Positions 4,050 through 48,005 of a stretch of DNA of 48,345 bases are shown piece after piece (the stretch's first letter is position 1; each line of letters opens with the position of its first letter). This stretch comes from Akkermansiaceae bacterium (GTDB lineage Bacteria; Verrucomicrobiota; Verrucomicrobiia; Verrucomicrobiales; Akkermansiaceae), in contig JANYFB010000308.1 of assembly GCA_025362955.1 (NCBI GenBank), positions 1 through 48,345 on the forward strand. Reading direction: 5' to 3'. The position numbers and the translations under genes are program-made. The notes beneath the pieces are model-generated. The model made no database searches, had not been told where the DNA came from, and worked only from the letters and a program-made list of their open reading frames with translations.

Positions 4050-4349
4050 CGTAATAACGCTTTGGTTTTCTCCCGGCCTGACGACGGGGGTGTATTATTT
4101 GTTTTCGTCAGCTCGTCAAAACCTCAGTTCGCTCCCGTGCCTTGGGTGCCGGCGACGCAAAATAGCCCGTGAATGACGCAATTTCACCCTAGAACCGGCA
4201 CGAGCAAGCCTGCTATGCATCTGCTACGTCTTTTAAAATGCACTGGGTTGATTTGCGAAATTTTCGTTCTCAGGAATTGATTTAATGGCTTCCAAGACAA
4301 CCTGAAAAGTTGAACTTCGAAAACCCATTGCCGAAGAACGCTTTTTTTC
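4050..4349. other. Intergenic region upstream of the symporter operon
   Basis: A 300-bp non-coding stretch between the DUF4186 remnant and the first gene of the polysaccharide region. It contains the 21-bp-phased regulatory repeat (separate entry at 4154). A possible -10 element TATGCA lies about 25 bp after the second repeat. The last 100 bp are AT-rich. I see no other gene, hairpin terminator or RNA here. Confidence 0.6.
4154..4190 (+). promoter_or_regulatory. Predicted AraC/XylR-type operator, copy 1 (symporter operon)
   Basis: Two direct half-sites, GACGCAAAATAGCCC at 4154 and GACGCAATTTCACCC at 4175, start exactly 21 bp apart. The same bipartite element appears at four other promoters in the window. 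It lies about 160 bp upstream of the Kelch-symporter start. The -10-like hexamer seen 12 bp after the CCCCT of other copies is not conserved here. Confidence 0.72.
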
Positions 4350-16145: not shown

Positions 16146-16183
16146 GACGCAAAAAAGCCCCACTGCGACGCAACAATGCCCCT
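16146..16183 (+). promoter_or_regulatory. Predicted AraC/XylR-type operator, copy 2 (isomerase-GH105 unit)
   Basis: Half-sites GACGCAAAAAAGCCCC at 16146 and GACGCAACAATGCCCC at 16167 start 21 bp apart, in the 91-bp gap after the heparinase pseudogene. The track ORF at 16138 reads through this element, so that start is most likely false. Confidence 0.75.
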
Positions 16184-18899: not shown

Positions 18900-18959
18900 C
18901 ATCGTCGAATCCCCTTGTATTTCCGGGCGTCCGGGATTGTCCTTAACCTCCGACAAGCT

Positions 18960-20126
18960 GTGAAATCCAAAAAGAAACGCATTGCCCTGATCGGACTGCC
19001 GGTCCTGCAGTCGGTGAACAACCTTTCCAACGCCGCGATAGCCCGGCACGCGGAAGAGGGAGGCAACTGGAGCTTCGTATTCAGCGCTGAGGCTTCGGTG
19101 GATGCTTTCAAATTCCTTAGAACCTTGAATTGTGACGGTGCCATCGTCCGCATCATGAATACGGCGATGCTGCGCGAGGCTAAAAAAGTCCAGTTTCCGC
19201 TGGTGAATGTGTCGTCGTGGTTAGAAAAACCAGGAGTGCCCACCGTGCGGCACGACTACGCTGCGGTAGGCCGGATGGCTGCGGAACACCTGTTAGAAAA
19301 AGGCTTCCGCCGCTTCGGCTGTGTGGTGGTGCCGGGAGGCTGGTTTCTGGAACAGCGACACAATGCTCTCGTCCGCTCGATCCGTGAGCACGGAGGCTCC
19401 TTGAAGTCGTTTCATCTGGAAACCACGATGCCGGGCCTTATCCAACCCGTTACTCAAGCCGAGCGGCGTCGCTTCGTGGAGTGGGTGCGGACGCTGCAAC
19501 GCCCGGCGGCACTGGTTCTGATGGACGATTGGGATGCCCCACTTCTGATGGAACTTTGTCGCGAGGCGGGCTACGAGGTTCCGCGGGATCTGGTGATGAT
19601 CACCACCGGCTGCCACAGCGAGGTGCTGCCTCTCTGCCGGGTGCCTCTGAGCGCCGTCCAGGAGGATCAGGAGCTCCAAGCAAGACTCGCCGTCGGATGC
19701 CTTGATGTTCTCATGACCGACAAGCAACCGCGCGAGACGATGATCAGCGTGCCGCCTCTTGGAATCGTGGAGCGGGCTTCAACCGCCACCATGGCCATTG
19801 AGGATCTCGAGGTTGCTCATGCCGTCGAGTTCATCCGTGGCCATGGGTTTGAACCGATCAACGTGACTGATGTCAGTAGCCGGGTGCAAGTCGCGCGGGT
19901 GACGCTCGAGCGGCGTTTCCGACAGTTGATGGGCAAGACCATGCACGAGTACCTCACCGAGCTGCGGGTGCGCCGGGCGAAAGAATTGTTAGGCGGCGAA
20001 TCACCTCTCAGTCTTCAAGCCATCGCCCAGCAATGTGGTCTGGCGGACCGCAGGCGTCTCAACCAAGTGTTCATCAGCGTTACCGGGAAAACACCTGCGG
20101 CGTGGCAGCAGGAGCAATCGGAGTAA
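18960..20126 (+). CDS. XylR-like transcriptional regulator (periplasmic-binding-type sugar sensor + AraC HTH)
   Basis: A DNA-binding regulator of about 388 aa. Residues 10-270 form a LacI/periplasmic-binding-like sugar sensor ('RIALIGLPVLQSVNN', 'VVVPGGWFLEQRHNALV', 'LMDDWDAPLLMELCREAGY'). Residues 285-385 carry a double AraC helix-turn-helix ('VTLERRFRQLMGKTMHEYL', 'SLQAIAQQCGLADRRRLNQV'), the XylR arrangement. The track starts at TTG 18915; GTG 18960, directly before 'KSKKKRIAL', suits the domain better, but neither start has a strong ribosome site. It follows GH105 by 60 bp and ends 12 bp before the operator at 20138. It is the best candidate for the protein that binds the five 21-bp-phased sites. 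Confidence 0.88.
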   Translation: MKSKKKRIALIGLPVLQSVNNLSNAAIARHAEEGGNWSFVFSAEASVDAFKFLRTLNCDGAIVRIMNTAMLREAKKVQFPLVNVSSWLEKPGVPTVRHDYAAVGRMAAEHLLEKGFRRFGCVVVPGGWFLEQRHNALVRSIREHGGSLKSFHLETTMPGLIQPVTQAERRRFVEWVRTLQRPAALVLMDDWDAPLLMELCREAGYEVPRDLVMITTGCHSEVLPLCRVPLSAVQEDQELQARLAVGCLDVLMTDKQPRETMISVPPLGIVERASTATMAIEDLEVAHAVEFIRGHGFEPINVTDVSSRVQVARVTLERRFRQLMGKTMHEYLTELRVRRAKELLGGESPLSLQAIAQQCGLADRRRLNQVFISVTGKTPAAWQQEQSE

Positions 20127-20137: not shown

Positions 20138-20175
20138 GACGTAAAATTCCACGCTCGCGCCGCATTTTCGCCCCT
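20138..20175 (+). promoter_or_regulatory. Predicted AraC/XylR-type operator, copy 3 (giant-protein operon)
   Basis: Half-sites GACGTAAAATTCCACG at 20138 and GCCGCATTTTCGCCCC at 20159, again 21 bp apart; the second is the most divergent of all copies. It lies 12 bp after the regulator gene and upstream of the longest co-directional gene run (20.2-40.2 kb). Confidence 0.68.
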
Positions 20176-20187
20176 GTCTCCGGGTGC

Positions 20188-20193: not shown

Positions 20194-20231
20194 TGCTGTT
20201 ATTGTTTCAACCCATTCTTGGTTTCGAGTCC

Positions 20232-27122: not shown

Positions 27123-30100
27123 ATAAATTTCTAGCAAATCATTCCCAAGGAACGTTAGGGCTGCTCCTTGCAGCGGGAAAGATCATGGGCGGCTCAATCT
27201 GCAGTTGGCTGTTTTTGATTACCGCACCGGCCGACGCGGCCACGAAATCTTGGGATGGGGGAGGGGCGGTGGATAACTGGAGCGATAGCCTGAATTGGAA
27301 TGCCGACGGCGTGCCGAGTTCGAGTGATGTGGTGGTGCTCGATAACAGCGTGGTCAGCCCGTTGTCGACGATCAATGCCCTGTCCGGCGCCAATTGCGGG
27401 ACGTTGAGGTTCGATGGCACTGTGACTGGTAATTTTCTCAGCTATGCCGGGGCCACGCCTTATGTCCTGAATATTTATGGCGCAACGGTCAATGCCGTGA
27501 ACACCGGCCCGCTCATTACAGTCACTGCGAACGCCCAGTCTTCCTGCGCCGTCAACAAGCTGAATTTTCAGCTTCGCACGAACGGCGAGTTCTATGTCGA
27601 GACCGGGAAAAAGCTCACTCTAACCAACAGTTTTATTTCCGAATCCGGCTCGCGTGTTCTAACGAAATCAGGCGCCGGCACGCTCGACTTTTCGGGTAGT
27701 GGACCAAAAGTGACCTTCACGGGCGGCCTCAACATCGCGGCGGGCATATTCAACCCTTCGGCTCACACGTTATGCCTGCCCACATCAGGAACGATCACCT
27801 TTACGAATCCAGTTGGCACTCCAGCGGAAATCCAGTCCAGCCAAAGTCACACGATTGCCGCTCTCGCCGGTGGAAATGTGGACAGCACCCTTATTGTCAC
27901 AGGCACCAGCGGACTGACGGTGAATGGCTCGGCTAACACCACGTTCGGAGGTGTCATTTTGGACAACGATACCGGAACTAGCCTCACAGCTCTAACTTAC
28001 TCAGGCAGCGGCTCGCTCACGCTTACGGGTGCGAACACCTACTCAGGCGCAACGACCATCACCTCCGGCAAGCTCGCCCTTGGTTCCACGGGTTCCCTCG
28101 ACAGCCTTATTTTTGCAATCTCAGGTGGCGCGAAGTTCGATGTCAGCGCGCTGGCGTCCGGCTTCACCCTTGGCAGCGGCGGCACGCTCACCGGAGGCTC
28201 CGGCGTAAACGCAGGCCTCGTGAGTGGCTCCTTCATCGCAGGGAGCAACTCCACCATCTCGCCGGGTGGCACGGGGACGGGGACACTCTCTTTTTCTAAC
28301 GGTTTCACTCTCGTTTCGGGTGGCCACTTGCCTTTCCACCTCAATAGCACGACGCCGGGTACGGGCTACGATCAACTCCTCGTCACGGGTGGTAACGTCG
28401 CTCTCGCTGGCGACCTGGGTGGTTCCCTGTTGGGCTACGCTCCGGCGATCGGCGATACCTTTTACCTTATCCGCAATACGGGGTCCGGCAGCACGAGCGG
28501 AACCCTCAATGGAATCGCAAATGGCGGCAAGCTGGACTTTGGCGGCCAGTGGTTTCGCGTCAGTTTCACCTCCGTTCAAGGCGGCGCGGGTTTCCAGACT
28601 GCAGGGACCGGAAAAGATGTCGCCATCCAGCGAATCAATGATCCGACTCCCAGTGCATTCAAGGCCTCCATCGTCGGCCCCACCGACCAGAGCGTGGTCC
28701 AACTTCAAATAACTTGGCAGGACAACGCCTCGACTGAAACGGGCTTCCATATTTACCGAGTCGGGGATGGCGGCACTTTGCAACTCGTCTCTACGCTCGC
28801 CGCCAATGCGACATCGTATTCGGAAACGATCTCTGGTTCCTCGATTTTTACTTACGCGATTCAGGCTTTCAATGCCTCTGGCCCAGTCGGCGATCTCAAT
28901 TACGTAACTTCCCCCAACTTGGGGAATACTCTCGCCGACCGCCAGAACTTGATCCTCAACTACCTCAACACTAACACGCCCAATCTCGGCCAGACCGGCG
29001 CCGGCCCGCACCGCGTCGGCCGCACCGGATTCTGGTTCGGCGAGGGCCGCCTGCAACGTGGCGACACCGTTACGGGCCTGAACTACATCGCCACCGCCGT
29101 GGAGGATGCCGATGCCGAAAGCTCCAACGCGGGCTTCTCACTGTGGCCGGGTATGGACGCCTACTTCCGCTGGGGTTCCATGTTCTCTCCCGCGCTAAAA
29201 AGCCGCTATCAGACGATCTACACTTCCGCTTCCCGCTACAACGCGGGCTCGACGCCGAATCAGCGCTTCATGATCTGCGCGGCCTCTTATCTGGCCAACA
29301 CAGTCTGGGGGACCGCTACTAACACGGTCTCCAACGCCGGTTACCAGACCATCAACCTCCTCGGGCAAGTGGATAACACCACGGCCACCGATCACACCGG
29401 CCTGACCTACCTAAAAAAGGAAACCGAGCGCACTCCGCGCCGAGGCTTCGAGGAGGATGACTCCGTCCATTATCTGCACTTCACCCTCGCCCCGACCCGG
29501 ACACTGGCCCTGTTTGCAGCCGATCCAGACCTACGGAACAAGGCTCGGATGGTGTTCGACTACGGCATGGCCGTAGGGGCATCGGGTTGGTCAAACGGCC
29601 GGAGCGCGATTTCCTCCTCCCGCGGTGGTGTCACCGGTCAGCAGAACGCCTACGACATCACGACGCGGACGTATTGGCTCGGATTCGGAGGCGTGACACC
29701 CGGCAGTTTCACCGAAGCCGAAAACACGGCCATTTTCGCCCAGCCTGACTTCACCGGGGTGCTGCCCGAGATCGCCGCTGCCGCCACCGACCGCACGCAG
29801 TCCTACACGCGCAGGTCCATCGCCCAACGCCAGATCGGCCCCGAAGTCATCTACTTCAAGCAAACCTGGATGACGCCGCACTACGCGTTGTGGAGTCAGG
29901 CCGAAGGCGAAGTCGGGTTCAATCCCGGAGACGCTAGCTTTACCCTCAAAAATCTCAACGTCCAGGCGATCCACGATGGCTGGCAGGCTCAACGCTGGGC
30001 GCTGGTGTGGGACGATCCGACCAGTTCCGATTCCCTCATCAGACTAACCGCCCCGACCAACTACAGCACTGCGACGAACGCGGGGATGTCCATCTACGAA

Positions 30101-32083
30101 GACACCCTTCAGAAGGAGGACACGATGGTCGCCGTTTACAACATCCCGACCAACGATTTCACCAGCGGCAACAACGGCGTGTCACCCTGCCACCTGCTCA
30201 ACGGTCACATCTCTCTCAACTACCTCGCGATCACTGACGAAGCGGCCACCAGCGGTCGGATCTTCCTGCATTATAACAACGTCCTGGTTGCCCTCTACCT
30301 CAGCGCGCCTTTTTCCTGGTCTAACGATTTTCAAATCAGCCCATGGAGCAAGGGCTCGCTCGCCGTGGAAACGGCTCCCCTCAGTGACTACCCACAGGCT
30401 ACTGCGGCTGCGCGACTAGCCGCATTTCGAAGCGATGTGCTCACTAATGGAAGTGTCAACATCAGCTCAATCAACGCTACAGCCCCGCGTTTTATCTATA
30501 AAACACGAAAAGGCCGTATCCTCGACCTGACCTATGGCCAAGCCGGCATCGTGGACAGCGATCCCGTGGATTACCTCCAGTGGCCCATGCTGGAGAGTCC
30601 GACGATGTACCAACCGCAAATGGGAAATCTAACCATCACCGGGCCCAACCGCACCATTCTTTATAACTATAACGATTGGACAACGACTATCAACAACCGT
30701 CCGACCCTTTCCTCCACGCCGCTTTTCACGCTTTCCGCTCCTATGGACATTGACCTCGCCACACGGGCAAGTGACGTGGAAACGACTTCCAGTAAATTGG
30801 CCTTCGCCGTAAGCGGTGCGAGCAACGGCACGGTGCAACTCCTGCCGGATGGTCATACGGCGCGCTTTACCCCAACCGCGGGCTACCTCGGTGCTGCGGC
30901 CTACAACATCGCGGTGAATGACCGTGGGATCGATCCGAGGCTTGTGCTGGACTATGACTTCGAATCGCCCTCCACGCTTTCCGGCGGGATAATCGACGTT
31001 TCCCGCAATGCCCGCGACGCTACCGCACAAGCCGTGGCCAGCGGCACCGCGAGCCTTGATGCGGATGTTCCTTCGCCACTCGGTGCTAACAGCGCCCAAT
31101 CCCTGCGGCTCAATGAAAACGGCACGTCGGGCTACCGGCTGTCCCGCACCGTTACGCCGAGCAACCTGCAGATGAGCAATGGGAGCTGGACCTTTGCGAC
31201 CTGGTTCAAGCGGGCAAGTCGCACCACGGACGATTTCATCTTCTACGCTGGAAATGGCGATGGTTTGGGCGGCAGCGGCGATGAACTCCAACTCTGTTGC
31301 GCGGCTAACACAGATACCCTGTCCTTGAAGCATTATAACGCAGCGAATGTAATGGACATTAATCTCTCCTCCGCTGTCACCGTTGGCGTCAATGAATGGC
31401 ATCATGTCGCACTCACATTTACCCGTACCTCCGCGAATACCGGCACTGTGCGGTTATATCGGGATGGTGTGCTTTCCGCCACCTCCACTCCTATCACTTG
31501 GGCGCTGCATCAGGATGTGCCTCTCATCTTCGGTGGCCACGCTTCGACGAGTGCTTCGATCAATCGTTACTTCAACGGTTGGCTCGATGACCTCGCGCTT
31601 TTCCGCGGAGCGTTAGATGCTGGCGAACTTGCCAATCTCGCTCGGCAGAGTGTGGCTACCTTTGGGGGGCTCAGTGCAGGCGGTACGGTGAACGTCATGG
31701 TTCTCACGCCATTGCAGGCATGGCGTCGGCAATATTTCGGCACCACCGCGAATACAGGCGCAGCAGCCGATACGTCTGATCCCGACGGCGACGGCGCGGC
31801 CAACTTGCTCGAGTATGCGCTCGGAACCGCCCCGGATTCCGCAGCCTCCACTGTGAAGCCCGTACTGGGAAAATCTGGGAATTTTCTGACCTTGAGCTTT
31901 TCCCGATTGCGCGGCGACCTCACCTACGTGGTCGAGGGAAGCTCCAATCTTACCACATGGTTGCCCGTTGCCAGTAACCCCGGCATGGTCGGGGGGGCTG
32001 TTACGGTGACTGACAGCTTCAATATTTCTAACTCGAATCCGCCTCGCCGCTTCCTGCGCCTGCGGGCAATGTCCACTCCATGA
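27119..32083 (+). CDS. Giant secreted multidomain protein: autotransporter-like repeats, FN3, unassigned toroid enzyme, LamG, C-terminal sorting-like domain
   Basis: A 1654-aa exported protein whose ATG overlaps the stop of the previous giant gene. Signal peptide to 'APADAAT' near residue 40. Residues 45-500 are autotransporter-associated beta-strand repeats ('GSGSLTLTGANTYSGATTI'). FN3 at about 510-595. Residues 600-1185 are a helical toroid followed by a beta-sandwich ('GPHRVGRTGFWFGEGRLQRG', 'RGFEEDDSVHYLHFTLAP'), an enzyme-like module I cannot assign; a polysaccharide lyase is the likeliest reading. A cadherin-like domain (1195-1270) and a LamG domain (1275-1515, 'VNEWHHVALTFT') follow. 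The last 120 residues repeat the C-terminal domain of the preceding protein. Confidence 0.8.
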   Translation: MNKFLANHSQGTLGLLLAAGKIMGGSICSWLFLITAPADAATKSWDGGGAVDNWSDSLNWNADGVPSSSDVVVLDNSVVSPLSTINALSGANCGTLRFDGTVTGNFLSYAGATPYVLNIYGATVNAVNTGPLITVTANAQSSCAVNKLNFQLRTNGEFYVETGKKLTLTNSFISESGSRVLTKSGAGTLDFSGSGPKVTFTGGLNIAAGIFNPSAHTLCLPTSGTITFTNPVGTPAEIQSSQSHTIAALAGGNVDSTLIVTGTSGLTVNGSANTTFGGVILDNDTGTSLTALTYSGSGSLTLTGANTYSGATTITSGKLALGSTGSLDSLIFAISGGAKFDVSALASGFTLGSGGTLTGGSGVNAGLVSGSFIAGSNSTISPGGTGTGTLSFSNGFTLVSGGHLPFHLNSTTPGTGYDQLLVTGGNVALAGDLGGSLLGYAPAIGDTFYLIRNTGSGSTSGTLNGIANGGKLDFGGQWFRVSFTSVQGGAGFQTAGTGKDVAIQRINDPTPSAFKASIVGPTDQSVVQLQITWQDNASTETGFHIYRVGDGGTLQLVSTLAANATSYSETISGSSIFTYAIQAFNASGPVGDLNYVTSPNLGNTLADRQNLILNYLNTNTPNLGQTGAGPHRVGRTGFWFGEGRLQRGDTVTGLNYIATAVEDADAESSNAGFSLWPGMDAYFRWGSMFSPALKSRYQTIYTSASRYNAGSTPNQRFMICAASYLANTVWGTATNTVSNAGYQTINLLGQVDNTTATDHTGLTYLKKETERTPRRGFEEDDSVHYLHFTLAPTRTLALFAADPDLRNKARMVFDYGMAVGASGWSNGRSAISSSRGGVTGQQNAYDITTRTYWLGFGGVTPGSFTEAENTAIFAQPDFTGVLPEIAAAATDRTQSYTRRSIAQRQIGPEVIYFKQTWMTPHYALWSQAEGEVGFNPGDASFTLKNLNVQAIHDGWQAQRWALVWDDPTSSDSLIRLTAPTNYSTATNAGMSIYEDTLQKEDTMVAVYNIPTNDFTSGNNGVSPCHLLNGHISLNYLAITDEAATSGRIFLHYNNVLVALYLSAPFSWSNDFQISPWSKGSLAVETAPLSDYPQATAAARLAAFRSDVLTNGSVNISSINATAPRFIYKTRKGRILDLTYGQAGIVDSDPVDYLQWPMLESPTMYQPQMGNLTITGPNRTILYNYNDWTTTINNRPTLSSTPLFTLSAPMDIDLATRASDVETTSSKLAFAVSGASNGTVQLLPDGHTARFTPTAGYLGAAAYNIAVNDRGIDPRLVLDYDFESPSTLSGGIIDVSRNARDATAQAVASGTASLDADVPSPLGANSAQSLRLNENGTSGYRLSRTVTPSNLQMSNGSWTFATWFKRASRTTDDFIFYAGNGDGLGGSGDELQLCCAANTDTLSLKHYNAANVMDINLSSAVTVGVNEWHHVALTFTRTSANTGTVRLYRDGVLSATSTPITWALHQDVPLIFGGHASTSASINRYFNGWLDDLALFRGALDAGELANLARQSVATFGGLSAGGTVNVMVLTPLQAWRRQYFGTTANTGAAADTSDPDGDGAANLLEYALGTAPDSAASTVKPVLGKSGNFLTLSFSRLRGDLTYVVEGSSNLTTWLPVASNPGMVGGAVTVTDSFNISNSNPPRRFLRLRAMSTP

Positions 32084-35820: not shown

Positions 35821-38509
35821 ATGAATTTCCACATTGTAGCCTTAACGATTCTGATCTTGCCCACTCTTCAGTCAGGGCTTTCTGCTGATACGATTGCAAC
35901 TGAGGATGTCTCAAATTTAGCCGTCCCATGGCCTCCGCCGCATGACCCGAAAGATTCGCCTTTCGCAAAAATGCCCTGTATTTCTTATGCCGGATACAAA
36001 AGCAACAACACCCTCGTCAATCCCATCTGGGGAGATATAGAACCGGAAGATTTCGGCCCGCGGCCAGTTGCTTTTGACCAAACCGGGGTGCGTCAATTAA
36101 ATCAAATCCCAGCTCCTGGCATCCACCCCAGAATCTTTTGCACTCCTGCCGATCATGACAATATCCAGCGCCGGTTAAAGGAAACGCTCTGCGGCCAGGA
36201 GGCTTGGAAGAATCTGCTTTGTTATGTGAACTTTATTCACGGTACCTATGATCCAAAGGCGGACTATGCAAGAGCTCCTGAAATTGCTGGTTCCCCGGAA
36301 GGTAAGCCAAGGGGTGTCTTAGGTGATCTGCAGGGCCCCAAAACTGCGGATGCCGCAAAGCAATATCAGGCTCTCATCGCCGGAGATATGAGCCAGAAGA
36401 CAGATAGACTATGGCATGTGTTCCCTCTGGAAGCCTTTCGATGCTGGATTGAAAATGACGGAACTTCTGCTAAAGCTCTGGCCTCTGCGGTGGCTACCGC
36501 GTTGAAAATCGACCAAGCTCGAAGGAGCGCGGATCCGAGTCGAAAGCCTGGGCCGCTTGAACAACCCATTGCAGGCATTCACCTAGCATACACCTATGAT
36601 TTTCTCTACAACTGGCTGAATGCCGATCAGAAAAAGGCGATCCACGATGAATTGGCCAACGCTACCTGGAATCATGACAACTATGGCACCTTCAATGATG
36701 CGAGCCTTACCCGGAGCAACTGGGACTTTTTCCTATTGGTTGATCGAAACGCTCGCCATCGAAGGTGAACCCGGCTTCAACGATCTGAAGATTCGCGGAA
36801 TTTATAAAGGGTGGCGCAATCTCATGACCTACGGCTGGTTCCCATCGGGAGCCAACTACGAAGGCGAAGCCAAAAACCAACTGGGAGGCGATGGAATCCT
36901 GGCGCTGGCGATCCGGTGCAAGGCCTATGGATTTGATAATCTGGCAGGCCACCCCAATGTGTGCGCTAACATTCAGAATTTCACTCCAAAAAGCATCATC
37001 CCCACTCGCGATGGATTTGTAAAATATGATCTGCTAGGAGGAGTCCACCTCAAGCCGTTCCCGGCCGATCTTCTTGCCCTTAAATACCTAATGCCGGACA
37101 ATAAAACCATCGACTTTGCTTACCGATGCTCCATCGGCGAACATTATGAAAATGTCCCCAGCCGTTCCAAAGCCGGAAGCTACGATGCGATCAAGTGGGG
37201 CGGCTACACCCATCCGATGATTCCTTTCCTCGTTTTTGCATCGGACTTCGATCCCGCAAACAACGATCCCGCAAAACTCGGCATCGAGAAAACGTTTTTC
37301 TGCGGCGACCGTGCGCTCATGATGACCCGCAGCAGTTGGGACACGGATGCACTCATGGTCAATCTTCATGTCCGGCAAGCCAATGGCGGCCACCCTTTTG
37401 CCGACCGCAATTCGATCATGATCGCGGGCGCAGGTCGGGTCTGGGCTCCCATCTACGGCTGGGGATGCGAGGCATGGAAGAATAACAACAATGCGCAGGT
37501 GGTGATTGACGATCAGCCTCAGGCCGACCACACGCCCGCAAGAATGGTCGATTTTGTGGACGCGCCACTAGCAACTTTTGCAGTGGGCGATGCCAAGTAT
37601 ACATGGGATTGGAACTGGAAATTTAACGAGACATGGGGTCCGCGCGGCCATTACACCAAGGAAGATTACGATCAGGGCACCATCAAATTGGATAAGGGTT
37701 GGGAGTATGAGACCCATACCGTCAACGATTTCAGTTTCACCAAACATAACGAACCATTCCTGAATGAACCACTGGCTTTGCAACCCGAGTGGCTGCGCAT
37801 GAAAGGCTCCATCACTCCCATCGTGAAAGAGATTAACTACCCCGTGCAATACGCATTCCGCACTGCGGGATTGGTGCGTGGACCGCATCCTTACGCTCTC
37901 GTCATTGATGATATCAGGAAAGACGATGCGGCGCACAACTATGCCTGGTATTTCACTCTCGAATACGATGTGCAGATCGCCCAAGTCAAAAGGCCCAACG
38001 ATCATGAAATGGATATCATACTTACAGGAAATGATCCTCGGCAGACCAATGTGCCCAGCAAGGACGCAAAGACAATCAGCCCAGCCCTTCCTGCCGTTCG
38101 CAACCCCGATCAGCCCATCCCAGCCGGCCAACCGATGTTGCTGGTTCGGTTCCTGAATATTAAGAATGCTCCTAACGGCAGCGCGTCCAAGGATGGCGAG
38201 ACGCCAACGATTCTGGAGGATAATCCGCCGGCAAACTTCAAGGGTAGCTATTTACAGCGGGTCCGCCGGTTGGCCGTTCGCGCACAAGCCATCAGTCCTG
38301 AGTTCAAGGTTCTGCTTTTTCCATACCACCAAGGTGACGCGCTGCCGAAAACTGAATGGATCGATAGAAAAGCTGTAGCTATATCATGGTCGGAACAGAA
38401 AGATTTCTTGAGATTCTCCTCAGCTCCTTCCGGGAAAACCGATCTGATTGTGACTCGTGGTAACGTGGCGCTTCTCTCCATCGACAAGCCTATCGCGCCA
38501 ATTAGATGA
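35821..38509 (+). pseudogene. Heparinase II/III-family protein split by a +1 frameshift in a T5 run
   Basis: Two overlapping frames encode one protein. Frame one starts at ATG 35821 with signal peptide 'MNFHIVALTILILPTLQSGL', includes 'APGIHPRIFCTPADHDNIQR' near residue 98, and reads properly to 'LTRSNWD' at 36726. There a run of five T (36727-36731) occurs; removing one T restores 'NWDFSYWLIETLAIEGEPGF' and continues to 38509. The rejoined protein would be about 895 aa. The sandwich part has 'NGGHPFADRNSIMIAGAGRV' at the position of the His-containing motif of the other three lyases. The break may be a real mutation or a homopolymer sequencing error; the rest of the frame shows no other damage. 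Confidence 0.85.
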
Positions 38510-38583: not shown

Positions 38584-40200
38584 ATGCCCCAAATCCAGAA
38601 TCCCGTTCTGACAGGCTTCAATCCCGATCCCTCCATTTGCCGGGTCGGCGCTGATTACTATATTGCGACTTCCACATTCGAATGGTTTCCCGGCGTGCAA
38701 ATCCATCACTCGCGCGATCTCGCGAATTGGCGGTTGCTAGGACGTGCGCTGGACCGGGTGTCCCAGCTCGACATGCGCGGTTGCCAGAACTCCGGCGGCA
38801 TCTGGGCTCCATGTCTAACCCACGCGAACGGGAAATTCTGGCTGCTCTATACGAATGTCCATCATCACATGGGAGGTGTTGTCATGGATACGCCGAACTA
38901 TCTCGTTACAGCTGACAGGATTGAAGGTCCGTGGAGCGAGCCGGTTTTCCTCAATGCAAGTGGCTTCGATCCGAGTTTGTTTCATGATGATGACGGCAGG
39001 AAATACGTTGTCCAAATGCAAATGGGTGAAGCTCTAACACCAATCCGGTTCGATGGCATCTGGTTGCGCGAATACGATGCCGGGAAAGAAGCGTTTGTCG
39101 GCAAGCCGTCGAAGATCTGGGAGGGCAGTTCCATCGGCATCACCGAAGGGCCACACCTGTTAAAAAAGGACGGCTGGTATTATCTCATCACGGCCGAGGG
39201 CGGCACCTCGATGCGCCACGCTGTCAGCGTTTGCCGCAGCCGGGAACTTTGGGGGCCGTATGAAATCCACCCGGATAACCCAATGCTCACCTCGTTTGAA
39301 AAGGACCACCTCGTCCTAAAGTCCGCCGGGCACGGGTGTTTTGTGGAAACGCAAAATAGTGAGTGGTTCACCGTGCATCTTTGCCAGCGGCCATTGCAAC
39401 GTCCGGGACGGCAGGTTGGTGCTCGCGAGGAAAACAAGTCCGTTCCGCTTGGCCGGGAAACTTCGATTCAAAAACTGCGCTGGGATGCCGATGGCTGGCC
39501 GCGTCTCGCACAAGGAGACAACTCGCCGCTCGAAATTGTGGAGGTGGATCTAATTTCCCATCTATGGGCAACGGATGTCTTGCGAGATGATTTCGACGGA
39601 CCGGCGCTTAATCTTCATTTTCAAACCCTGCGCGAGCCAGTTGATGATTCATGGTTCTCTCTCACACGCCGCAAGGGTTGGCTCAGCCTGCGTGGCCGCG
39701 ATTCGTTGGCTTCGACCTTCGAGCAAAGTCTAATCGCCCGGCGGCTCCAACATTTTGCAGCACGCGCGGAAACCTGTCTCGCTTTCCAGCCATGGAATTT
39801 CAAACAGTCCGCCGGACTCATCGCTTATTATGATCGGTTTCACTATCATTACTTCCGAGTCACCTCTGCGGGTGATGGGACAATAAAACTCGGTGTGATT
39901 TCATCGGAAAATACCAAGTTGGATTATGTCCATGTAGTCGAGCTTCCCCTTGCCGCAGGGAATCAGCTTTTCCTACGGATGGAGAATGATTGGGCGGAAC
40001 TCCGCTTCTCGTGGTCCACGGATGGAGTTGAATGGCAGGTCGTCGATTGTGTCTTCGATGCCACCATGCTGGGTGACTGGGTTTCCCCGCACAGCAATTT
40101 TACAGGCACTTTCTGGGGCGTCTGTTGTCAGGATCTATCAGACCGCACGGCCTGGGCGGACTTCGATTACTTCGACTATCAGCCAATCGGCGAGTTATAG
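38584..40200 (+). CDS. Glycoside hydrolase family 43 enzyme with C-terminal beta-sandwich (second copy)
   Basis: A 538-aa cytoplasmic GH43 protein, clearly a paralogue of the one at 10288. The catalytic base is in 'TGFNPDPSICRVGADYYI' near residue 14, the second Asp in 'GFDPSLFHDDDGRKYV' near 125, and the acid Glu in 'GITEGPHLLKKDGWYYL' near 190. The C-terminal sandwich from about residue 325 is complete. Layout suggests exo-acting beta-xylosidase or arabinofuranosidase activity. It lies 74 bp after the frameshifted lyase in an AT-rich gap and its last 6 bp overlap the end of the convergent minus-strand gene. No signal peptide is present. Confidence 0.9.
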   Translation: MPQIQNPVLTGFNPDPSICRVGADYYIATSTFEWFPGVQIHHSRDLANWRLLGRALDRVSQLDMRGCQNSGGIWAPCLTHANGKFWLLYTNVHHHMGGVVMDTPNYLVTADRIEGPWSEPVFLNASGFDPSLFHDDDGRKYVVQMQMGEALTPIRFDGIWLREYDAGKEAFVGKPSKIWEGSSIGITEGPHLLKKDGWYYLITAEGGTSMRHAVSVCRSRELWGPYEIHPDNPMLTSFEKDHLVLKSAGHGCFVETQNSEWFTVHLCQRPLQRPGRQVGAREENKSVPLGRETSIQKLRWDADGWPRLAQGDNSPLEIVEVDLISHLWATDVLRDDFDGPALNLHFQTLREPVDDSWFSLTRRKGWLSLRGRDSLASTFEQSLIARRLQHFAARAETCLAFQPWNFKQSAGLIAYYDRFHYHYFRVTSAGDGTIKLGVISSENTKLDYVHVVELPLAAGNQLFLRMENDWAELRFSWSTDGVEWQVVDCVFDATMLGDWVSPHSNFTGTFWGVCCQDLSDRTAWADFDYFDYQPIGEL

Positions 40201-40899
40201 AGTCGCAGCATCCGTGATGCGTTGGACTTCGGTGGTGCCGTTCACCGGATAGATGATGACCATGGTGCGCTGGCCGGGGCGGATGACCCAGTTGTTCGAG
40301 TAAAGCCGCCGGTCGTCCGCTAGGGATACGGTAGCGAAGCGGGTCTCGGGTTTTTCTCCGATCCCGGTTTTAAAAAGTTCCACGCTTGCGGGGGTGATGG
40401 TGGCTGCGGAATCTCCAAGCGTGGCAGCGAGGCGGGCGGCGGTGAGGTTGATGAACCGACAGGTGGTGTCGGGGAACGACTTTGGATCATCCGCTAACAC
40501 GAGAGTCATGAGGATTTCCGGGCGATCCGGATGGGGCAGAAACAGAACGAGAGGCAGGCTGCCACCTTTGGACAAATCTGCCTCTGCTACGACCTTGCGG
40601 ATGGGTTTACCATCGGCACCGACGGCCTTGCGAAAGAACACCACTTTACCGGGACCGAGGCGGTCGTAGTAATTGGAGCGGCTGCTGTCGAAAATGCCGA
40701 TGGTTCCTTCCTTGCCCAATTCCTTCTGGGGCGTGCCAGCCTCAGGCATCGCGGCGTAGGAGAGTTCCTCCACAGTCACCCGGCAGCCGAGAGTACGGAA
40801 CGTTCCCTTGCGATTTTGGTCGGACTCCTGGGCCGTTAGGGGCAGGAGGGCGCTGAATAGAGCGATGATGCTGCAGGGAATTTTTAGTTTAGATCTCAT
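40195..40899 (-). CDS. Secreted protein encoded with Verru_Chthon cassette A
   Basis: I do not recognise the family. I use ATG 40899 ('MRSKLKIPCSIIALFSALLP'), which overlaps the end of the cassette A gene by 11 bp and gives a signal peptide; the track start at 40944 lies in the upstream gene. The mature protein is about 210 aa, with a beta-rich look and a hydrophobic 'GSLPLVLFLPHP' and a C-terminal 'VIRPGQRTMVIIYPVNGTTE'. The tight coupling to the large prepilin-like gene suggests that the two act together at the cell surface. It converges with the GH43 gene, overlapping by 6 bp. Confidence 0.72.
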   Translation of the reverse strand: MRSKLKIPCSIIALFSALLPLTAQESDQNRKGTFRTLGCRVTVEELSYAAMPEAGTPQKELGKEGTIGIFDSSRSNYYDRLGPGKVVFFRKAVGADGKPIRKVVAEADLSKGGSLPLVLFLPHPDRPEILMTLVLADDPKSFPDTTCRFINLTAARLAATLGDSAATITPASVELFKTGIGEKPETRFATVSLADDRRLYSNNWVIRPGQRTMVIIYPVNGTTEVQRITDAATL

Positions 40900-43800
40900 T
40901 GGGTGAAAGCCAGCGGAAGGAGGTGATTGTGAAACTACGACCAAAAATCTTGTTCTTTTCGGATTTCAGGTCGGCCAGGGAAGCTTCTGCGGGATCGGTG
41001 GAGCCGTCGAGAAATTCGGGCAGGCGCTGGACCACCGCCTCGGCGATCACTTGGGCGATGACTCGCCCACTAGCGTCTATCGCCTGTCCGCAGGCTCTGA
41101 CGGTGAAGGTATCGGAGCGCACCGTCATCGCTGGGGAAAACGCCTGCACGATATCCTGCTGCATGAGATATCCCGGCATGCCGGTGGCGGTGTTGAGGGT
41201 GTTTCCTTTCGCGTCCTTCAGATTACCGGGGATCATGGCGGGTGTGCCACCGGTGACGGTGGTGGGCACGCCTGCCGCCTTGGCGGTGGCATTGACATCG
41301 GGCGAAGTATTGTCGATGGCCGCCTGGAGCGCCCCGGCGCGAGTGAGCGGGCCGTCGGGGCCGAGGCGGCGATTGAGAAAATCCGCCATGCTGAGAAACG
41401 GCCCGCGGAGCTTTACCTGCTCGACGATCCGTGCCGCGAGTTCATCCAGCTCCGCGTCATTGAGCACGCGTAATCCGTCCCATGCGGAGTTTGGGTTGCA
41501 ATTGGCGGAAGCAGACCAGAAGCGTGGGATGGGATTTTTGTTAGGACCGGTGCCGAGATCGAGAGTGGTCGCATTGCCTGAGGTGGCGTTGAAAAGGCGC
41601 AGCTTGTTGCCGGACAGGCTTCCGAGGAGCGCCTTCCAAGCACCGGTGGAGGTGGAGTTGACGTTGAAGGCACCGTCGAGAATCAAATTGGCTGCGGCTT
41701 TTTCCACCGACCGCAACTCATCCATGCGGAGGGGTTTGCTGGCTGGCGAGCGCGGCTTGATGCGTCCGTTGAGCAGCGGTTTATTAAAGTCAATGAGGAC
41801 GCTGCCTGCATTGGCGTCATTGAAATCATTCCAATAAGCAGGCAAGGTGGTACCCGACGAAGCAGCGGCGGGGGGCACGGTGGAGAGGAAAAATCGGTCG
41901 AACAAGGCCTGGTTGGCCAAGAACGAATCATCCAGGAAAAGGGTGTCGCTGGTGACACTTCCGGCGACGGTGGGTGAGGTCAATGCGTTATTGTCCAACG
42001 GGATGACTGGCGAAGGGAGCGAACCACCAACAAACATCGAACCCATTCCCAAATAGGCAAAGTTTCCAATTGTTAGGAAATTCATCGCTGGCATGTGCAT
42101 GAATTGTCCCAGCGAAACCAACGGCTGGCGCGGCACGTCGCGCAAGATGTATCGATTGCTGGGCATTCCGGATCCAGCACTGGCATCGCCGAACGAAGTC
42201 TGCCAGACATTCGGGTTGCCAGCCGGGTGGACGATCTGAACATCTGTCTGCCCATTGGTATAAATCCCGCCGAAGGGGCTTAGATAGACTTCCTTCCAAG
42301 GGTATGAGGCGGAGTCCTCCAACGGAGTGAACTGGCTGAAATTGCCATGAAACAACGGGATCTGGTTGGCGGCGTTGGAATAGGTAAATGTAGAGGCAGA
42401 GGGCTTCAGGCCTTTCTGGCGGATGTAAAAGCCAATGATCCTGCGGGGTTGGCTATTCATCTGGCTGATGGAAAGTTTCTGCCAGCTTCCCGCCGATGCC
42501 GGTTGCTGATAGGAGCCGCCCGCCTGGGCGCGGGCGGAACCATCGTTGTCAGGCCATTTGTAGTTGGGAGGATTGCAGAAAGTGTCCACGGCCTGGCATC
42601 TCAGTGAGGGTGCGCTGAGCTGGATGCTGATCTCGGCGTTCGGATCGGTAGTGGAGAAGGGAGTTCCCGAGCTTTTACCGGTGGTGGCATCAGCGGTGGC
42701 GGGCAGGTCACAATATTGCGAGTAGTCTGCGGACATTCCGGGGTTGGAAACCAAGTCGCTGAAGGTGATCGCCGCTTTCGGGTCGCTTTTCAACTCATCC
42801 GCATCGAGCGCAAAAACACGCGTCTCGCCAGGTTCAAGCGTGGCGCAGGCACCGGCTTTTGTTTTGAGGGTAAGGCGTCCGGCGTCTGCTTGGTTGATGA
42901 GAGAGTAGGGAACCGTAATCGTGGTGTTTCCGCTTTTGGCAGAAACCTTGATGCAGGTCACGGTGGGTGATGCCGCATTGTAGGATCCGGCAGTGGCGAA
43001 GGCTCCGAAGTTTCTCTGGAACTGATAGTCGCTGGCTTGAATTCTAGCGGAATAGGGATTGTAGAGAACGAGCTGTGGGTAGTAATGAAGCCTGAGCCTC
43101 CAAGCCGGCGTGGTTGCGTTACCGGCATTATAGCTGGAGATCGCGACATCGACGCGGAATGCGATTGGCATCGGTGCGATACCGGCCTGCTTGGTGCTGG
43201 AGCCTGCGAGTTTGACTCCATAATAGCGTGGAGAAAGGACATTGGGCAGGGTTTCCGGTGTTCCTGAACTCGTCGGTGCGGTGGAAGGCTTGCCACTGGA
43301 CGCTATCGGGGAACTCATTAGACTTTTATAAGTGTTGTAATGGAAATAGAGCGAATGCCACGGCAGGCCATCAGTGATTTCCGGATTGGCGGGCTGCACT
43401 CCTGAAGGAATCGTGGGATCGGTGTTGGCGCTGTTGGTGGAATAGCGGTAGAGCATTGCCGCACCGTTGCCGTAGTTGTTGAGCAAGCTTTCGAATGCCG
43501 AAGGGGTTTCAAATGCCGCAGTCAGGTCTTTTTTTAAACCGCCGTGACGAACGTCAGCGATTACCCCCTGGCTGTTCACGGTAAAATCGGGAGAATAACG
43601 GGCGATCGGGTTTTTCATCGAAACCTCGGGCAGCAATTTAACCGTTTCGAGAGTCAGGAATTTCGCCATGGTTTCCGGCGGTGATTTTCGCAAATCCAGT
43701 CCTGTGGAAGCCATTGGCAGCACCTTCTGCATGGCATTCGCCTGAGGTGCGAGATGATGGAGTTGATCGATGGCTGCCAGACCGCTGGAGAACGTGAAAT

Positions 43801-44518
43801 CTACCAGATTGGCCTTCGCCTTCAATCCCTCATCGCAAACCCAATATCCGTAGCGACCGCCGGGCGTCGAGATGGTGGAGCCTGGCACCTTCACCAGCGG
43901 CACCGTCACCTCCGCCAGATCAGCCCCAAGATTTTTTGCAATGACGACACCATCCGCATCGGTGTTGTTAGATATCGCAGTGTACCCAATAGGATCGAGC
44001 GGATTCTGGCTGCCCGGCTGGGGATTCGACACAAGCCAACGGGCGGCTAGCGTACGGCTGGTGCCTATGCTGTCGGTCCTTTGCGCTTCAGTCGGCTTGC
44101 TCCCGGTTTTCCAGACACCGGTCCAATACTTCTGGTTCACACCCTCCACTGCAGGTGTGTCAGGCTTGGAGTCCAGAATTTCCGCCCTCGCGGTGATGCG
44201 CTGATCGGGCCCGGCTTCTTTTTGAAGCTCACCGATGGCCAGCATCAGACCCATGCGGGCATTGGCACGCGCGGTCGCCATGGCCTCTTCCTGTGTGGAA
44301 CTGCGCAGCGAGATACTGGAAAGCGAGAGCAATCCGATGGCGATGACCGTGAGCAGAATCATCAGGCTTAACGTGACAACAAGCGCGAAGCCCCTGTTAG
44401 TTTGCGGGGAGCTGTCATGGCAGCGGGGAGATCGAAAAAAGGCAAAGGTCTCCCCTGTTGCCAAATCCTCCCCAGGGTCTAACGAACTATTCACGCTGTA
44501 ACCATCATGTTGATTCAT
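40889..44518 (-). CDS. Verru_Chthon cassette protein A (giant prepilin-like protein)
   Basis: About 1209 aa. Near the N-terminus there is a single prepilin-type hydrophobic helix preceded by Arg-Gly: 'RGFALVVTLSLMILLTVIAI', followed by 'ARANARMGLMLAIGELQ'. The C-terminus 'VIAEAVVQRLPEFLDG' plus 'IFGRSFTITSFRWLSPNEI' is the typical end of the Verru_Chthon A family (TIGR02600). These proteins occur in Verrucomicrobium and Chthoniobacter, usually in four-gene A-D cassettes with type-IV-pilin-like leaders; here only A and one small partner are seen. Function is unknown. The true start is uncertain: the track ATG 44557 lies inside the predicted operator, ATG 44518 (13 codons in) is my choice, and GTG 44494 is possible. 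Confidence 0.85.
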   Translation of the reverse strand: MNQHDGYSVNSSLDPGEDLATGETFAFFRSPRCHDSSPQTNRGFALVVTLSLMILLTVIAIGLLSLSSISLRSSTQEEAMATARANARMGLMLAIGELQKEAGPDQRITARAEILDSKPDTPAVEGVNQKYWTGVWKTGSKPTEAQRTDSIGTSRTLAARWLVSNPQPGSQNPLDPIGYTAISNNTDADGVVIAKNLGADLAEVTVPLVKVPGSTISTPGGRYGYWVCDEGLKAKANLVDFTFSSGLAAIDQLHHLAPQANAMQKVLPMASTGLDLRKSPPETMAKFLTLETVKLLPEVSMKNPIARYSPDFTVNSQGVIADVRHGGLKKDLTAAFETPSAFESLLNNYGNGAAMLYRYSTNSANTDPTIPSGVQPANPEITDGLPWHSLYFHYNTYKSLMSSPIASSGKPSTAPTSSGTPETLPNVLSPRYYGVKLAGSSTKQAGIAPMPIAFRVDVAISSYNAGNATTPAWRLRLHYYPQLVLYNPYSARIQASDYQFQRNFGAFATAGSYNAASPTVTCIKVSAKSGNTTITVPYSLINQADAGRLTLKTKAGACATLEPGETRVFALDADELKSDPKAAITFSDLVSNPGMSADYSQYCDLPATADATTGKSSGTPFSTTDPNAEISIQLSAPSLRCQAVDTFCNPPNYKWPDNDGSARAQAGGSYQQPASAGSWQKLSISQMNSQPRRIIGFYIRQKGLKPSASTFTYSNAANQIPLFHGNFSQFTPLEDSASYPWKEVYLSPFGGIYTNGQTDVQIVHPAGNPNVWQTSFGDASAGSGMPSNRYILRDVPRQPLVSLGQFMHMPAMNFLTIGNFAYLGMGSMFVGGSLPSPVIPLDNNALTSPTVAGSVTSDTLFLDDSFLANQALFDRFFLSTVPPAAASSGTTLPAYWNDFNDANAGSVLIDFNKPLLNGRIKPRSPASKPLRMDELRSVEKAAANLILDGAFNVNSTSTGAWKALLGSLSGNKLRLFNATSGNATTLDLGTGPNKNPIPRFWSASANCNPNSAWDGLRVLNDAELDELAARIVEQVKLRGPFLSMADFLNRRLGPDGPLTRAGALQAAIDNTSPDVNATAKAAGVPTTVTGGTPAMIPGNLKDAKGNTLNTATGMPGYLMQQDIVQAFSPAMTVRSDTFTVRACGQAIDASGRVIAQVIAEAVVQRLPEFLDGSTDPAEASLADLKSEKNKIFGRSFTITSFRWLSPNEI

Positions 44519-44527
44519 GTTTGAAAA

Positions 44528-44565
44528 CAGGGTTGTTTTGCGTCGGTATAGTGTCATTTTACGTC
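44528..44565 (-). promoter_or_regulatory. Predicted AraC/XylR-type operator, copy 4 (cassette A unit)
   Basis: On the minus strand GACGTAAAATGACACT starts at 44565 and GACGCAAAACAACCCT at 44544, again 21 bp apart. It faces the Verru_Chthon A gene. The track start codon of that gene (44557) falls within it, which argues for a later start. Confidence 0.7.
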
Positions 44566-44607
44566 AGAATCAGCGGGATGAGTGCAATCCGGAGTGAGTG
44601 CGGTCTT

Positions 44608-44645
44608 GACGTAAAATTGCACGCCATTGACGCAAAATCGCCCCT
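44608..44645 (+). promoter_or_regulatory. Predicted AraC/XylR-type operator, copy 5 (last lyase gene)
   Basis: Half-sites GACGTAAAATTGCACG at 44608 and GACGCAAAATCGCCCC at 44629 start 21 bp apart; this is the copy closest to the consensus. It lies 124 bp before the start of the 1078-aa heparinase-fold gene. Confidence 0.75.
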
Positions 44646-44657
44646 CTTGCGGTGAAT

Positions 44658-44663
44658 GATGCT
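44658..44663 (+). promoter_or_regulatory. Predicted -10 element GATGCT
   Basis: GATGCT starts 12 bp after the CCCCT of the operator, the same spacing as GATACT at 16196 and GATACC at 20188. Predicted transcription start near 44670 leaves an untranslated leader of about 100 bases. Confidence 0.42.
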
Positions 44664-44768
44664 TGAAACAAACTTTCGTATGAAAGCCCCGCCATGATTC
44701 CGATGGTGACCATATCCAGATCAATCGGCCGGAGCGCTAATTTTTAAAAAGCAGGCCAAAGTAATCAC

Positions 44769-47700
44769 ATGATAAATTTCCAACGTTTCCTTTTCAGCGT
44801 GATCTGTCCGCATCTTGCGGCGTTGCCGCTGGCGTTTTCCCAAAGCGTGCCAGCTCCCCTTGCTCCCCCCCAGCAGGATCGCGGACTACCCTATACCCGA
44901 ACGGCTATTCCGGCTGCACTCGAAAAGATCCGAGGCGGGATCGCCGTTTTTCCGGGTAGCCGCTATGGTTACGTGAAGGGCTTGCGGGTGCGGTTAGACG
45001 AGAAGGATTTGCTGCGGGCGGAAGCCGTTTCGAAAGACGGCGTGGTGTACGTGCCGGGTTCATTTGCCGCTCTGGTCGGAATAGCGGAAATCAATCCCGC
45101 GCCTGTGCCGGAGGATCTTGCCGCCATCGCGGATCGTTGGGTTTACACCCCTGGCGAGTTGGTTGGGAAAAGTCGCGGGGCATACACTCCCGCTGGAAAT
45201 GTCCGAACGCTGAAAGTTCGTGATGCGACCTACTACGCGATTGATGATGTGGCAGCGGCAACGGGTCTGAAAGTCACGAGCCATCCGCGTGGTCTGGTCT
45301 ATCTGGGAGAAAGCGCTCTCACCTTCGGAGCAGACGAGGACGCAGTGCTGGATTCCGTCATCACTCTTTTTGACACGCCGGATAAATTCGCCGATCCGGA
45401 CATCGCGACGAGATCAATCCCGAATCTAACACGCCAAGGTAAATGGACGGACCATGTCAAGGTCACTCCCGAGCAAATGGCCATTTTACACGGACCGGAA
45501 ACCGAATGGCCGACGGTGCCGAAGAATCAATATAATTTCAAAGGTTTCGACAAGACGTTGCTGGGTTCGGAAATGCCAGCGCCGGGAATCTATCCGCGTC
45601 TGCTCTTCAGTGCCAAGGACGTGCCAATGCTGGCCGCCAGAGTCAAGGCCACGACGGTCGGACAGATGTCGCTCATCGAAATGGAGCATCTATTCAAAAA
45701 AACTTTCTGGGATCCGCAAACGAGCGATGGAGAGGTTTTTCAAAAACTCGCGTCGGGAAATCTCACCGGTCTGGAGTGGCCGGACGATGTTCGCCCGGAG
45801 CAGATCGCTACCGTCAACACCGCGCAGCAGTTCAAAGGACAGAAACAGGGGATCTACAATTCACACGTTGCCTATATGCCGGAATGCCTGACCTCAATGG
45901 CGCTCTATTGCTTGATCGCCAACGACGACGATCATGGTCGCCAAGTGGCTGCGGCGGTCGCCAACTACTATAAACTGCGCGAGCCGTTGATCGACGAGTG
46001 GCTCAAAATCAGCGATTCAGAGTTCGGCTCATCACTGCGCAAACCGGATGGAACTCTCGTCTCGCTCAACGCATCGGGTGCCCGCACGCACTGGCGGAAC
46101 ATCCACGGCTTGGTCGCCCACATGAATCTCGGACTCTCTCTCGACCTCGCCGGAAAATGGATGAATGCGGTACAAAAAGACGTGATGCGCCGCGTCATCG
46201 CGAAGGCGACCTATGGCAGACGGTCCTATGGCCAGGATGCACCGGTTAGATTCCGCGATGTGAACTGGATGGCCTGGGATCTTCCCCATTTCATTGCGTT
46301 GGCGGCGATTGAAGGGCTGCCGGGATTCGACGCGGAAGCCTACGCCTCGGGGGCGGAAAGCGTGCGTGCGTTTTGTGATTGGGGAATCGACGAAGCCGGC
46401 GTGATTTTTGAAAGCACTGGGAAAAACCCCGGTGCGCTGGAGTTTGAACTCCTCTCGATGGTGATCATGGCGCGGCACGGTGAAAACCTTTTTGGCCATC
46501 CGCACTGGCGAAATCTAATGGAGGCCTCGGTCCAGATGAGCTCGCCGACAGGCCGGGTCATGGTGAACAGCGGGACGCAATATTCTCCTTTCAGCCGTCA
46601 GAAGCTGTCGCGCTTCCTCGTTCCTGAATTGAAGTGTTTCTATCCGGAAAGCCGCCTGCCGGACTATTGGCTGACATCGATGTTCAACGACGCCGGAGCC
46701 GACCCTAACGACCCCACCTGCCTTCTGCCACCCGATAAGTTTTCCGCCGATGATTACCGCGCGAAAGTCCCTACCCTCCCGCGCCTGCGACTGCCTAGCG
46801 TGACCTATCCGGGGATGGCACGGAATGTGTTATACGACGCCGATATTCAGCCGACGAAGCGCTCCGACCTAAAACTGCCGCTGGATTTTAACGCGCCATG
46901 GCAGGGTGCCTTTTCCAGCTACAGTGATCGGACGGTGGAGGCGGCATGGATGCATCTTTACGTGCGTCCCCATCATTATCTCGGTGCCGGCCATCATCAT
47001 GCCGATGCGGGCATGTTCCACTTCTCCGCGCTGGGAGTGGACTGGTTCACCCAATCGCCTTTCTCCCAAACCTACGACGGAAAGTACTATAACCTCGTCC
47101 AAGTGGACGGCGAATCCGAGCCGACCGCAATTTCAGGCGGGCCGTTAGGCTACAACGGTGCAGCCACCTATCTTGGAGCGGTGATCGGAAATGATGCCTC
47201 GGTCGGTAGCGCGGATCTAACTTACGCCTATTCATGGAGATGGAACACGCAGCCGCCGCAAGTCTGGTCGGACGAACTCGGTGCCATGGGCTGGGAACTC
47301 GATCCGTCTCCGGAAAATCTCCGTATCTGGGCGGGCACGGCCCGATACAAAATGCGGCCGTGGTGGTCTAACTACAATTATTCCAACTACATCCCGACCA
47401 GCCGTGCGCCGTTTAATCCAATGCAATATGTCTTTCGGAGCACTGCGCTCATTCGTGGAGTCCAACCCTATGGTATAGTTATAGATGATTTGAAAAAGGA
47501 CGAGTCACCGCATCTCTATCAGTGGGCAGGAATGCTGAATGGTGGAGTATGGAAAGCCGAGGTTCCGGGGCTCGCGTCCAACCAAATCGCTTTGGCCACA
47601 AATGGTCTTGATCCGGATTTGAATGCGAGTGAAACCCGGAAGACGCTGGAGCCGAAAGCGGGTGATCCGCTGTTGATCGTCACGGCGCTTGGCATGGATT

Positions 47701-48005
47701 CGAGTGGTGATTCCAAGCTGCATCTCCTTCAGGTGGAAACGGCCCCGGGACCGTCGGATCGAAACGGCAAGCCGATGTTTCATGATCGCCTGCTGATCAA
47801 CCGGCGTGCGGTCTCGGCGAACTTCCGCGTGCTTCTCCTGCCAGTGCGGGCCGGCAGCCCGATACCTGTCGTTTCGTGGGACGCCACCCGCCAAACCGCC
47901 ACCGTCAATTTCCCCGGACAGCCCGACACCTTGCACTTCAACATCGCCGACGATCAACGCACCCGCCTCGGGGCAAGCCGCGGTGACAAGGTGATGATTC
48001 ATTAG
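44769..48005 (+). CDS. Secreted heparinase II/III-fold lyase with N-terminal copper-amine-oxidase-like stalk domain
   Basis: A 1078-aa exported protein with an intact frame. Signal peptide 'INFQRFLFSVICPHLAALPL' to 'AFSQS'. Residues 45-180 look like Cu-amine-oxidase N-terminal/stalk repeats ('DGVVYVPGSFAALVGIAEI', 'TYYAIDDVAAATGLKVTSHP'). The toroid starts near residue 272 with 'APGIYPRLLFSAKDVPMLAA', and the beta-sandwich carries 'GAGHHHADAGMFHFSALGVD' near 741, the His-rich motif of this lyase fold. It is probably a polysaccharide lyase acting outside the cytoplasm. It begins its own transcription unit after operator copy 5, and the next gene follows 11 bp later. Confidence 0.86.
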   Translation: MINFQRFLFSVICPHLAALPLAFSQSVPAPLAPPQQDRGLPYTRTAIPAALEKIRGGIAVFPGSRYGYVKGLRVRLDEKDLLRAEAVSKDGVVYVPGSFAALVGIAEINPAPVPEDLAAIADRWVYTPGELVGKSRGAYTPAGNVRTLKVRDATYYAIDDVAAATGLKVTSHPRGLVYLGESALTFGADEDAVLDSVITLFDTPDKFADPDIATRSIPNLTRQGKWTDHVKVTPEQMAILHGPETEWPTVPKNQYNFKGFDKTLLGSEMPAPGIYPRLLFSAKDVPMLAARVKATTVGQMSLIEMEHLFKKTFWDPQTSDGEVFQKLASGNLTGLEWPDDVRPEQIATVNTAQQFKGQKQGIYNSHVAYMPECLTSMALYCLIANDDDHGRQVAAAVANYYKLREPLIDEWLKISDSEFGSSLRKPDGTLVSLNASGARTHWRNIHGLVAHMNLGLSLDLAGKWMNAVQKDVMRRVIAKATYGRRSYGQDAPVRFRDVNWMAWDLPHFIALAAIEGLPGFDAEAYASGAESVRAFCDWGIDEAGVIFESTGKNPGALEFELLSMVIMARHGENLFGHPHWRNLMEASVQMSSPTGRVMVNSGTQYSPFSRQKLSRFLVPELKCFYPESRLPDYWLTSMFNDAGADPNDPTCLLPPDKFSADDYRAKVPTLPRLRLPSVTYPGMARNVLYDADIQPTKRSDLKLPLDFNAPWQGAFSSYSDRTVEAAWMHLYVRPHHYLGAGHHHADAGMFHFSALGVDWFTQSPFSQTYDGKYYNLVQVDGESEPTAISGGPLGYNGAATYLGAVIGNDASVGSADLTYAYSWRWNTQPPQVWSDELGAMGWELDPSPENLRIWAGTARYKMRPWWSNYNYSNYIPTSRAPFNPMQYVFRSTALIRGVQPYGIVIDDLKKDESPHLYQWAGMLNGGVWKAEVPGLASNQIALATNGLDPDLNASETRKTLEPKAGDPLLIVTALGMDSSGDSKLHLLQVETAPGPSDRNGKPMFHDRLLINRRAVSANFRVLLLPVRAGSPIPVVSWDATRQTATVNFPGQPDTLHFNIADDQRTRLGASRGDKVMIH

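Follow-up and report, generated by a model that had tools for sequence, protein, structure and literature searches.

A gene encoding a giant pilin-like protein of an uncultured Akkermansiaceae bacterium (40889..44518, minus strand; 1209 residues from ATG 44518) is predicted to specify a GspK-like minor pseudopilin with a large insertion, and it is faced by a copy of an operator that recurs at genes of a neighbouring sugar cluster. In light of these features, we propose that the protein is a GspK-type tip of a type IV filament which, wired into a XylR-type sugar-responsive regulon, sets the substrate of the filament, a reading to which we give about an even chance. The DNA under study, here referred to as the window, comprises 48,345 nucleotides and constitutes an entire contig of a genome of 3.9 Mb, which is 90% complete and distributed over 352 contigs. 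Both the giant gene and that of its small secreted partner (40195..40899, minus strand) are present as claimed in a preliminary description of the region, whose further interpretation is revised below.

The assignment of the giant is based on its prepilin motif, on the alignments A1 and A2 and on a predicted structure with its match to GspK. The prepilin motif, RGFALVVTLSLMILL, lacks the glutamate at position 5 of the mature chain, which is found in none of the 64 relatives that are readable at this position and which is likewise missing in GspK of E. coli K-12 (RGVALLIVL). Cleavage is expected after Gly 43, with the mature protein starting from about 44389, and alternative later starts of the gene at GTG 44494 or TTG 44464 are possible. 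In its C-terminal part, the protein contains a stretch FNVNSTS...AARIVEQVKLRGPFLSMADF that resembles LNVNTAS...AENIVDARGREGFQSKDDF of XcpX, so that similar NVN-S/T-A/T-S and R..PF.S..DF motifs are shared with the GspK/XcpX proteins. The landmark motifs of GspK are separated by 674–854 residues in 36 relatives of the giant compared to about 119 in K-12 GspK, and this widened spacing suggests an insertion of about 600 residues in the giant, whose length is 1209 residues compared to about 300 in GspK/XcpX. As estimated from the alignment and the motifs, the insertion would extend over about residues 235–950 (41671..43816, minus strand).

Searches with family models matched the protein at its N-terminus only. 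The GspK model NF037980 scores 24.3 bits and does not reach its cut-off of 130, with N-terminal matches found in 16 of 19 relatives, and an hhalign comparison with K-12 GspK (P of 0.001, vs 0.17 for GspJ) is confined to the same end of the protein. The preliminary description had identified the giant as Verru_Chthon cassette protein A. Although the two share a similar length, TIGR02600, the model of this family, yields 23.8 bits at a cut-off of 332.3 and matches positions 1–59 of 1296 only, and we have thus rejected membership; the same model also matches 17 of the 19 relatives. A Pfam search of the giant returned nothing useful, a profile of the 19 relatives found no match among PDB sequences, and a single-sequence match to 9xfv_A (‘bacteria pilus (like)’, E 0.1) was regarded as chance. 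The name Verru_Chthon was not encountered in any paper of our literature search.

The relationship to GspK is manifested in an AlphaFold (AF2) model generated from 65 relatives (pLDDT 75, pTM 0.83). In a comparison of this model with PDB chains by VIA-align, the first four ranks are all occupied by GspK/XcpX structures (6utu_C with a Z-score of 11.2, 5vtm_X with 10.9, 9a1f_T with 10.8 and 3ci0_K with 10.7), which match over 226–258 residues at 3.1–3.3 Å, whereas rank 5 falls to a Z-score of 3.7. Foldseek alone retrieved 5vtm_X at an E-value of 1.4 only. Since the matched range extends across the whole model, the GspK fold would be assembled from both ends of the giant, and the prediction thus shows a GspK-like minor pseudopilin in which N- and C-terminal parts combine to a complete GspK. 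The about 600 inserted residues would then form an exposed module on the GspK scaffold. This module is modelled with middling to low confidence and lacks a strong fold match; a part of it (about 42460–43150) bears a weak likeness to Ig/FN3-type β-sandwiches (Z about 3), and no carbohydrate-binding fold was recognised in the fold comparison of the predicted insert.

In 68 of 87 relatives, a gene of the same strand encoding 207–347 residues is located directly downstream of the giant, and several of the exceptions resemble gene-calling errors. The ordinary unit therefore consists of two genes, the giant and a secreted β-sandwich protein of about 240 residues. The partner in the window, a protein of 234 residues, carries an ordinary signal peptide, has no NCBIfam match and is predicted to fold into two transthyretin-like sandwiches (AF2, pLDDT 90). 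Its best PDB matches are the extracellular domain of PepT2 (Z 11.9 over 173 residues) and a domain of AlgF (Z 10.2), in lists where the absence of a family does not exclude that family, and we take the likeness of the predicted fold to these domains to indicate no function. Among the open reading frames of the window, no other prepilin-type N-terminus was detected and no gspG-H-I-J genes adjoin the giant gene. The observation that cassette members B, C and D are not visible, another distinction from the Verru_Chthon cassette, thus holds for the window, whereas the reduction that had been concluded from it is ruled out, since a two-gene unit is the normal arrangement. This arrangement also sets the giant apart from GspK/XcpX proteins, as it is encoded outside a gsp operon and in many copies per genome and is accompanied by a secreted β-sandwich partner, besides scoring below the GspK cut-off.

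The operator is a direct repeat with 21-bp spacing whose two half-sites are followed by CCC (GACGYAAAAT...GACGYAAWAT...CCC). The region between the divergent genes (44558–44768) contains two copies, one per strand and each oriented to the adjacent gene, in agreement with the preliminary description. The copy at 44530..44565 (minus strand) faces the giant pilin-like gene and the copy at 44608..44643 (plus strand) faces a gene for a secreted protein of 1078 residues (44769..48005, plus strand). Three further copies on the plus strand are located at 4154..4189, before the gene of an SSF transporter (4350–6959), at 16146..16181, at the start of a run consisting of an isomerase gene (16138–17094), a GH88 gene (17091–18899) and a regulator gene (18915..20126, plus strand), and at 20138..20173, before the genes of a 2312-residue secreted protein (20184–27122) and of a 1654-residue PATR/laminin-G protein (27119–32083). 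The 2312-residue protein contains an HYR domain and shows a faint match to DUF4962 at its start. When up to three mismatches were allowed, a search of the whole genome located the operator seven times, namely five times in the window and twice on another contig (C97), while a reversed control pattern in the same search gave no match. Both sites on C97 precede PATR/autotransporter-repeat proteins (locus L043, G000:C97, 986–4726 and 3–752).

The protein at 44769..48005 had been called a lyase, a label that is backed by neither a Pfam nor a PDB-sequence match. An HHHAD motif as well as the relatives and neighbours of the protein suggest a lyase-like, putatively heparinase-like, enzyme, with orthologues of 73–77% identity in two related genomes, G117 and G127. 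Two other lyase-like genes of the window are interrupted, one by an in-frame TAA (13578–15176 / 15213–16133) and one by a frameshift (35821–36768 / 36620–38509). Both are single open frames in G117, and the interruptions are due either to decay in the recent past or to errors in the assembly. A further strong operator-like site lies beside a heparinase-like gene of another genome in the genus (L162, G013:C72, position 3930).

We have scored the sites with a matrix built solely from six sites of the orthologous clusters in G117 and G127. On the window, this matrix finds exactly five sites with scores of 43.4, 37.9, 37.2, 32.7 and 21.6, all of which exceed the maximum of 17.8 obtained for other verrucomicrobial DNA (2.0 Mb). 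The site facing the giant is the lowest of the five. With a second matrix, derived from the three other strong sites of the window and thus excluding it, this site scores 25.1, compared to a best score of 15.0 in 12 simulated windows. Because the five window sites top everything in the 2.0 Mb of other DNA, the operator set, including its weakest member, is confirmed to be far above chance. The weakest site ends 11 bp upstream of ATG 44518, and an upstream in-frame ATG of the giant gene (44557) overlaps the operator. Its low score and its position very near the reading frame would also fit a role as an accessory element or a decoy at the promoter of the lyase-like gene, in which case the pilin-like gene would be outside the regulon. 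AraC-family regulators often use extra sites, and the orthologous locus of G117 keeps the lyase-facing site only. Conversely, the site is oriented towards the pilin-like gene in the same way as the other sites are towards theirs and shares with them the 21-bp spacing and the terminal CCC; we find a decoy improbable.

A candidate for the protein that binds these sites is encoded within the cluster. The regulator (18915..20126) has a LacI-type sensor and, for DNA binding, a domain of the AraC type (Peripla_BP_3 and HTH_18). Its orthologues in the G117 and G127 clusters, which contain the same operator, are 79–80% identical, while other matches to it in the host genome are weak. In all three genomes, the operator precedes the SSF gene and is also present at the run of isomerase, GH88 and regulator genes, and from this co-occurrence the regulator appears as the probable owner of the operator. 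The organization corresponds to XylR-type AraC regulons, in which a sugar cluster includes a regulator with Peripla_BP_3 and AraC HTH domains and its genes are preceded by direct-repeat operators with a spacing of about two helix turns, and it differs from these in the inclusion of a pseudopilin and of PATR surface proteins in the predicted regulon.

The two related clusters qualify the place of the giant in this regulon. In G117, the genes of the lyase-like protein (73% identity) and of the pilin (47%) likewise diverge, with an operator found facing the former and no recognisable one facing the latter. G127 contains a complete orthologous cluster including the regulator (80% identity), with neither the pilin nor its partner in it. 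Common control of the giant with the lyase-like genes, as had been suggested, is thus consistent with the correctly oriented operator in the window and is not mirrored in either of these relatives. Elsewhere in G117, the same operator accompanies a PATR/autotransporter-repeat protein (L222, contig C38) and a weaker copy is located upstream of a secreted protein (L223, contig C57).

For the giant of the window, we envisage a place at the tip of a type II secretion pseudopilus or of a similarly built pilus, and it would be made together with the transporter, the GH88 enzyme, the lyase-like enzyme and the large secreted PATR/β-helix proteins. The host genome encodes three secretins and four GspE/PilB-type ATPases, and the tip would most likely cap filaments of a shared machinery. 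While the polysaccharide is present, its insert may set what the filament handles, which could be an exported cargo or the glycan. In case of export, the giant would pick exoproteins of the regulon, such as the lyase-like enzymes and the PATR/β-helix giants, for type II secretion. Such a role is in line with XcpX, the GspK of its system, which forms the top of the type II secretion tip complex (PMC6211770). The regulon contains large secreted proteins, and PATR-type proteins with the operator are encoded on C97 of the host and on C38 of G117, which are the two genomes that have both the cluster and the pilin. However, the same set of enzymes is found in G127 without a giant, and PATR proteins are not generally enriched next to giants (2/218 vs 2/683 in a crude motif test), which leaves export a possible though somewhat doubtful specialization.

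Handling of the glycan itself would imply that the insert binds the polysaccharide and aids attachment or uptake. In Akkermansiaceae, a type IV-like pilus locus, MUL2, has been reported for attachment to fucose-rich glycans, as has the uptake of fucoidan (PMC13174399), and the predicted glycan-inducible control of the giant gene would fit such a function. MUL2 belongs to the same bacterial group and includes a pilin-like protein proposed for glycan attachment, but MUL2A (Amuc_1102) is another type of pilin encoded in a conserved locus with PilM, whereas the giant is found outside such a locus. A precedent for an extra module on a pilin scaffold is provided by the type 4 pili of Streptococcus sanguinis, where a tip-located minor pilin complex bears a lectin module (PilC, besides PilA; PMC9934059). 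There, glycan binding is established in an unrelated lineage, while the giant is known from its sequence and a model. Within the family of giants, a fully supported clade of six members including the window protein is located at carbohydrate loci in every case, a count biased by marker genes that were partly chosen from those very loci; the closest relatives of the window protein, within this clade, are found near a GH29-like gene, near uronate isomerase and LacI genes, and near LacI, esterase and β-helix genes. Against capture, the insert is devoid of a recognised carbohydrate-binding fold and the giants in general are not linked to carbohydrate loci, and we regard it as unlikely.

Giants of this kind are found in 139 of 145 genomes of the bacterial family of the host, with six copies in the host and 4–20 in six complete relatives. 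Only the window copy of the six host giants has the operator, and each is paired with a small secreted β-sandwich partner where the contig permits a view. Akkermansia genomes contain 3–6 match places each, giants included; in one genome of the Akkermansia group (2,664,102 bp), two GspK-type giants form a divergent pair (L216, G119:C1:203000-222999, 8867–16033). Of the 74 giants encoded in the six complete genomes, 14 have a Peripla_BP_3 regulator at a distance of up to 10 kb, compared to 7.4 expected (p 0.017). Sugar-sensor regulators account for 9 of 218 next-door genes vs 10 of 683 far genes (p 0.027), a weak adjacency. The carbohydrate enzymes looked for were not enriched among the next-door genes, and the carbohydrate-locus label does not cluster on the tree of giants. 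With placement close to random, a tie to carbohydrate loci has to be rejected as a general property of the family. Most giants are placed elsewhere, with single members wired into sugar regulons, and the family does not in itself represent a carbohydrate system. In view of this distribution and of the exceptions in G117 and G127, the role suggested for these proteins, that they capture, secrete or take up a polysaccharide, is put forward here as a hypothesis for the window member only.

The described features endow a large, previously unexplained protein family with a predicted structural identity, that of GspK, and with a first regulatory handle. It is conceivable, albeit speculative, that Verrucomicrobia keep giant GspK-type tips with variable inserts and partners, from which sugar-sensing regulators would select the one to be placed on a shared filament, its specificity thus being set by transcription. 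If tips were exchanged by regulon in this way, it would reveal how a single filament machine is directed to different substrates in bacteria that lack SusCD-type systems. Since giants are also found in Akkermansia genomes, the idea is testable in cultured strains.
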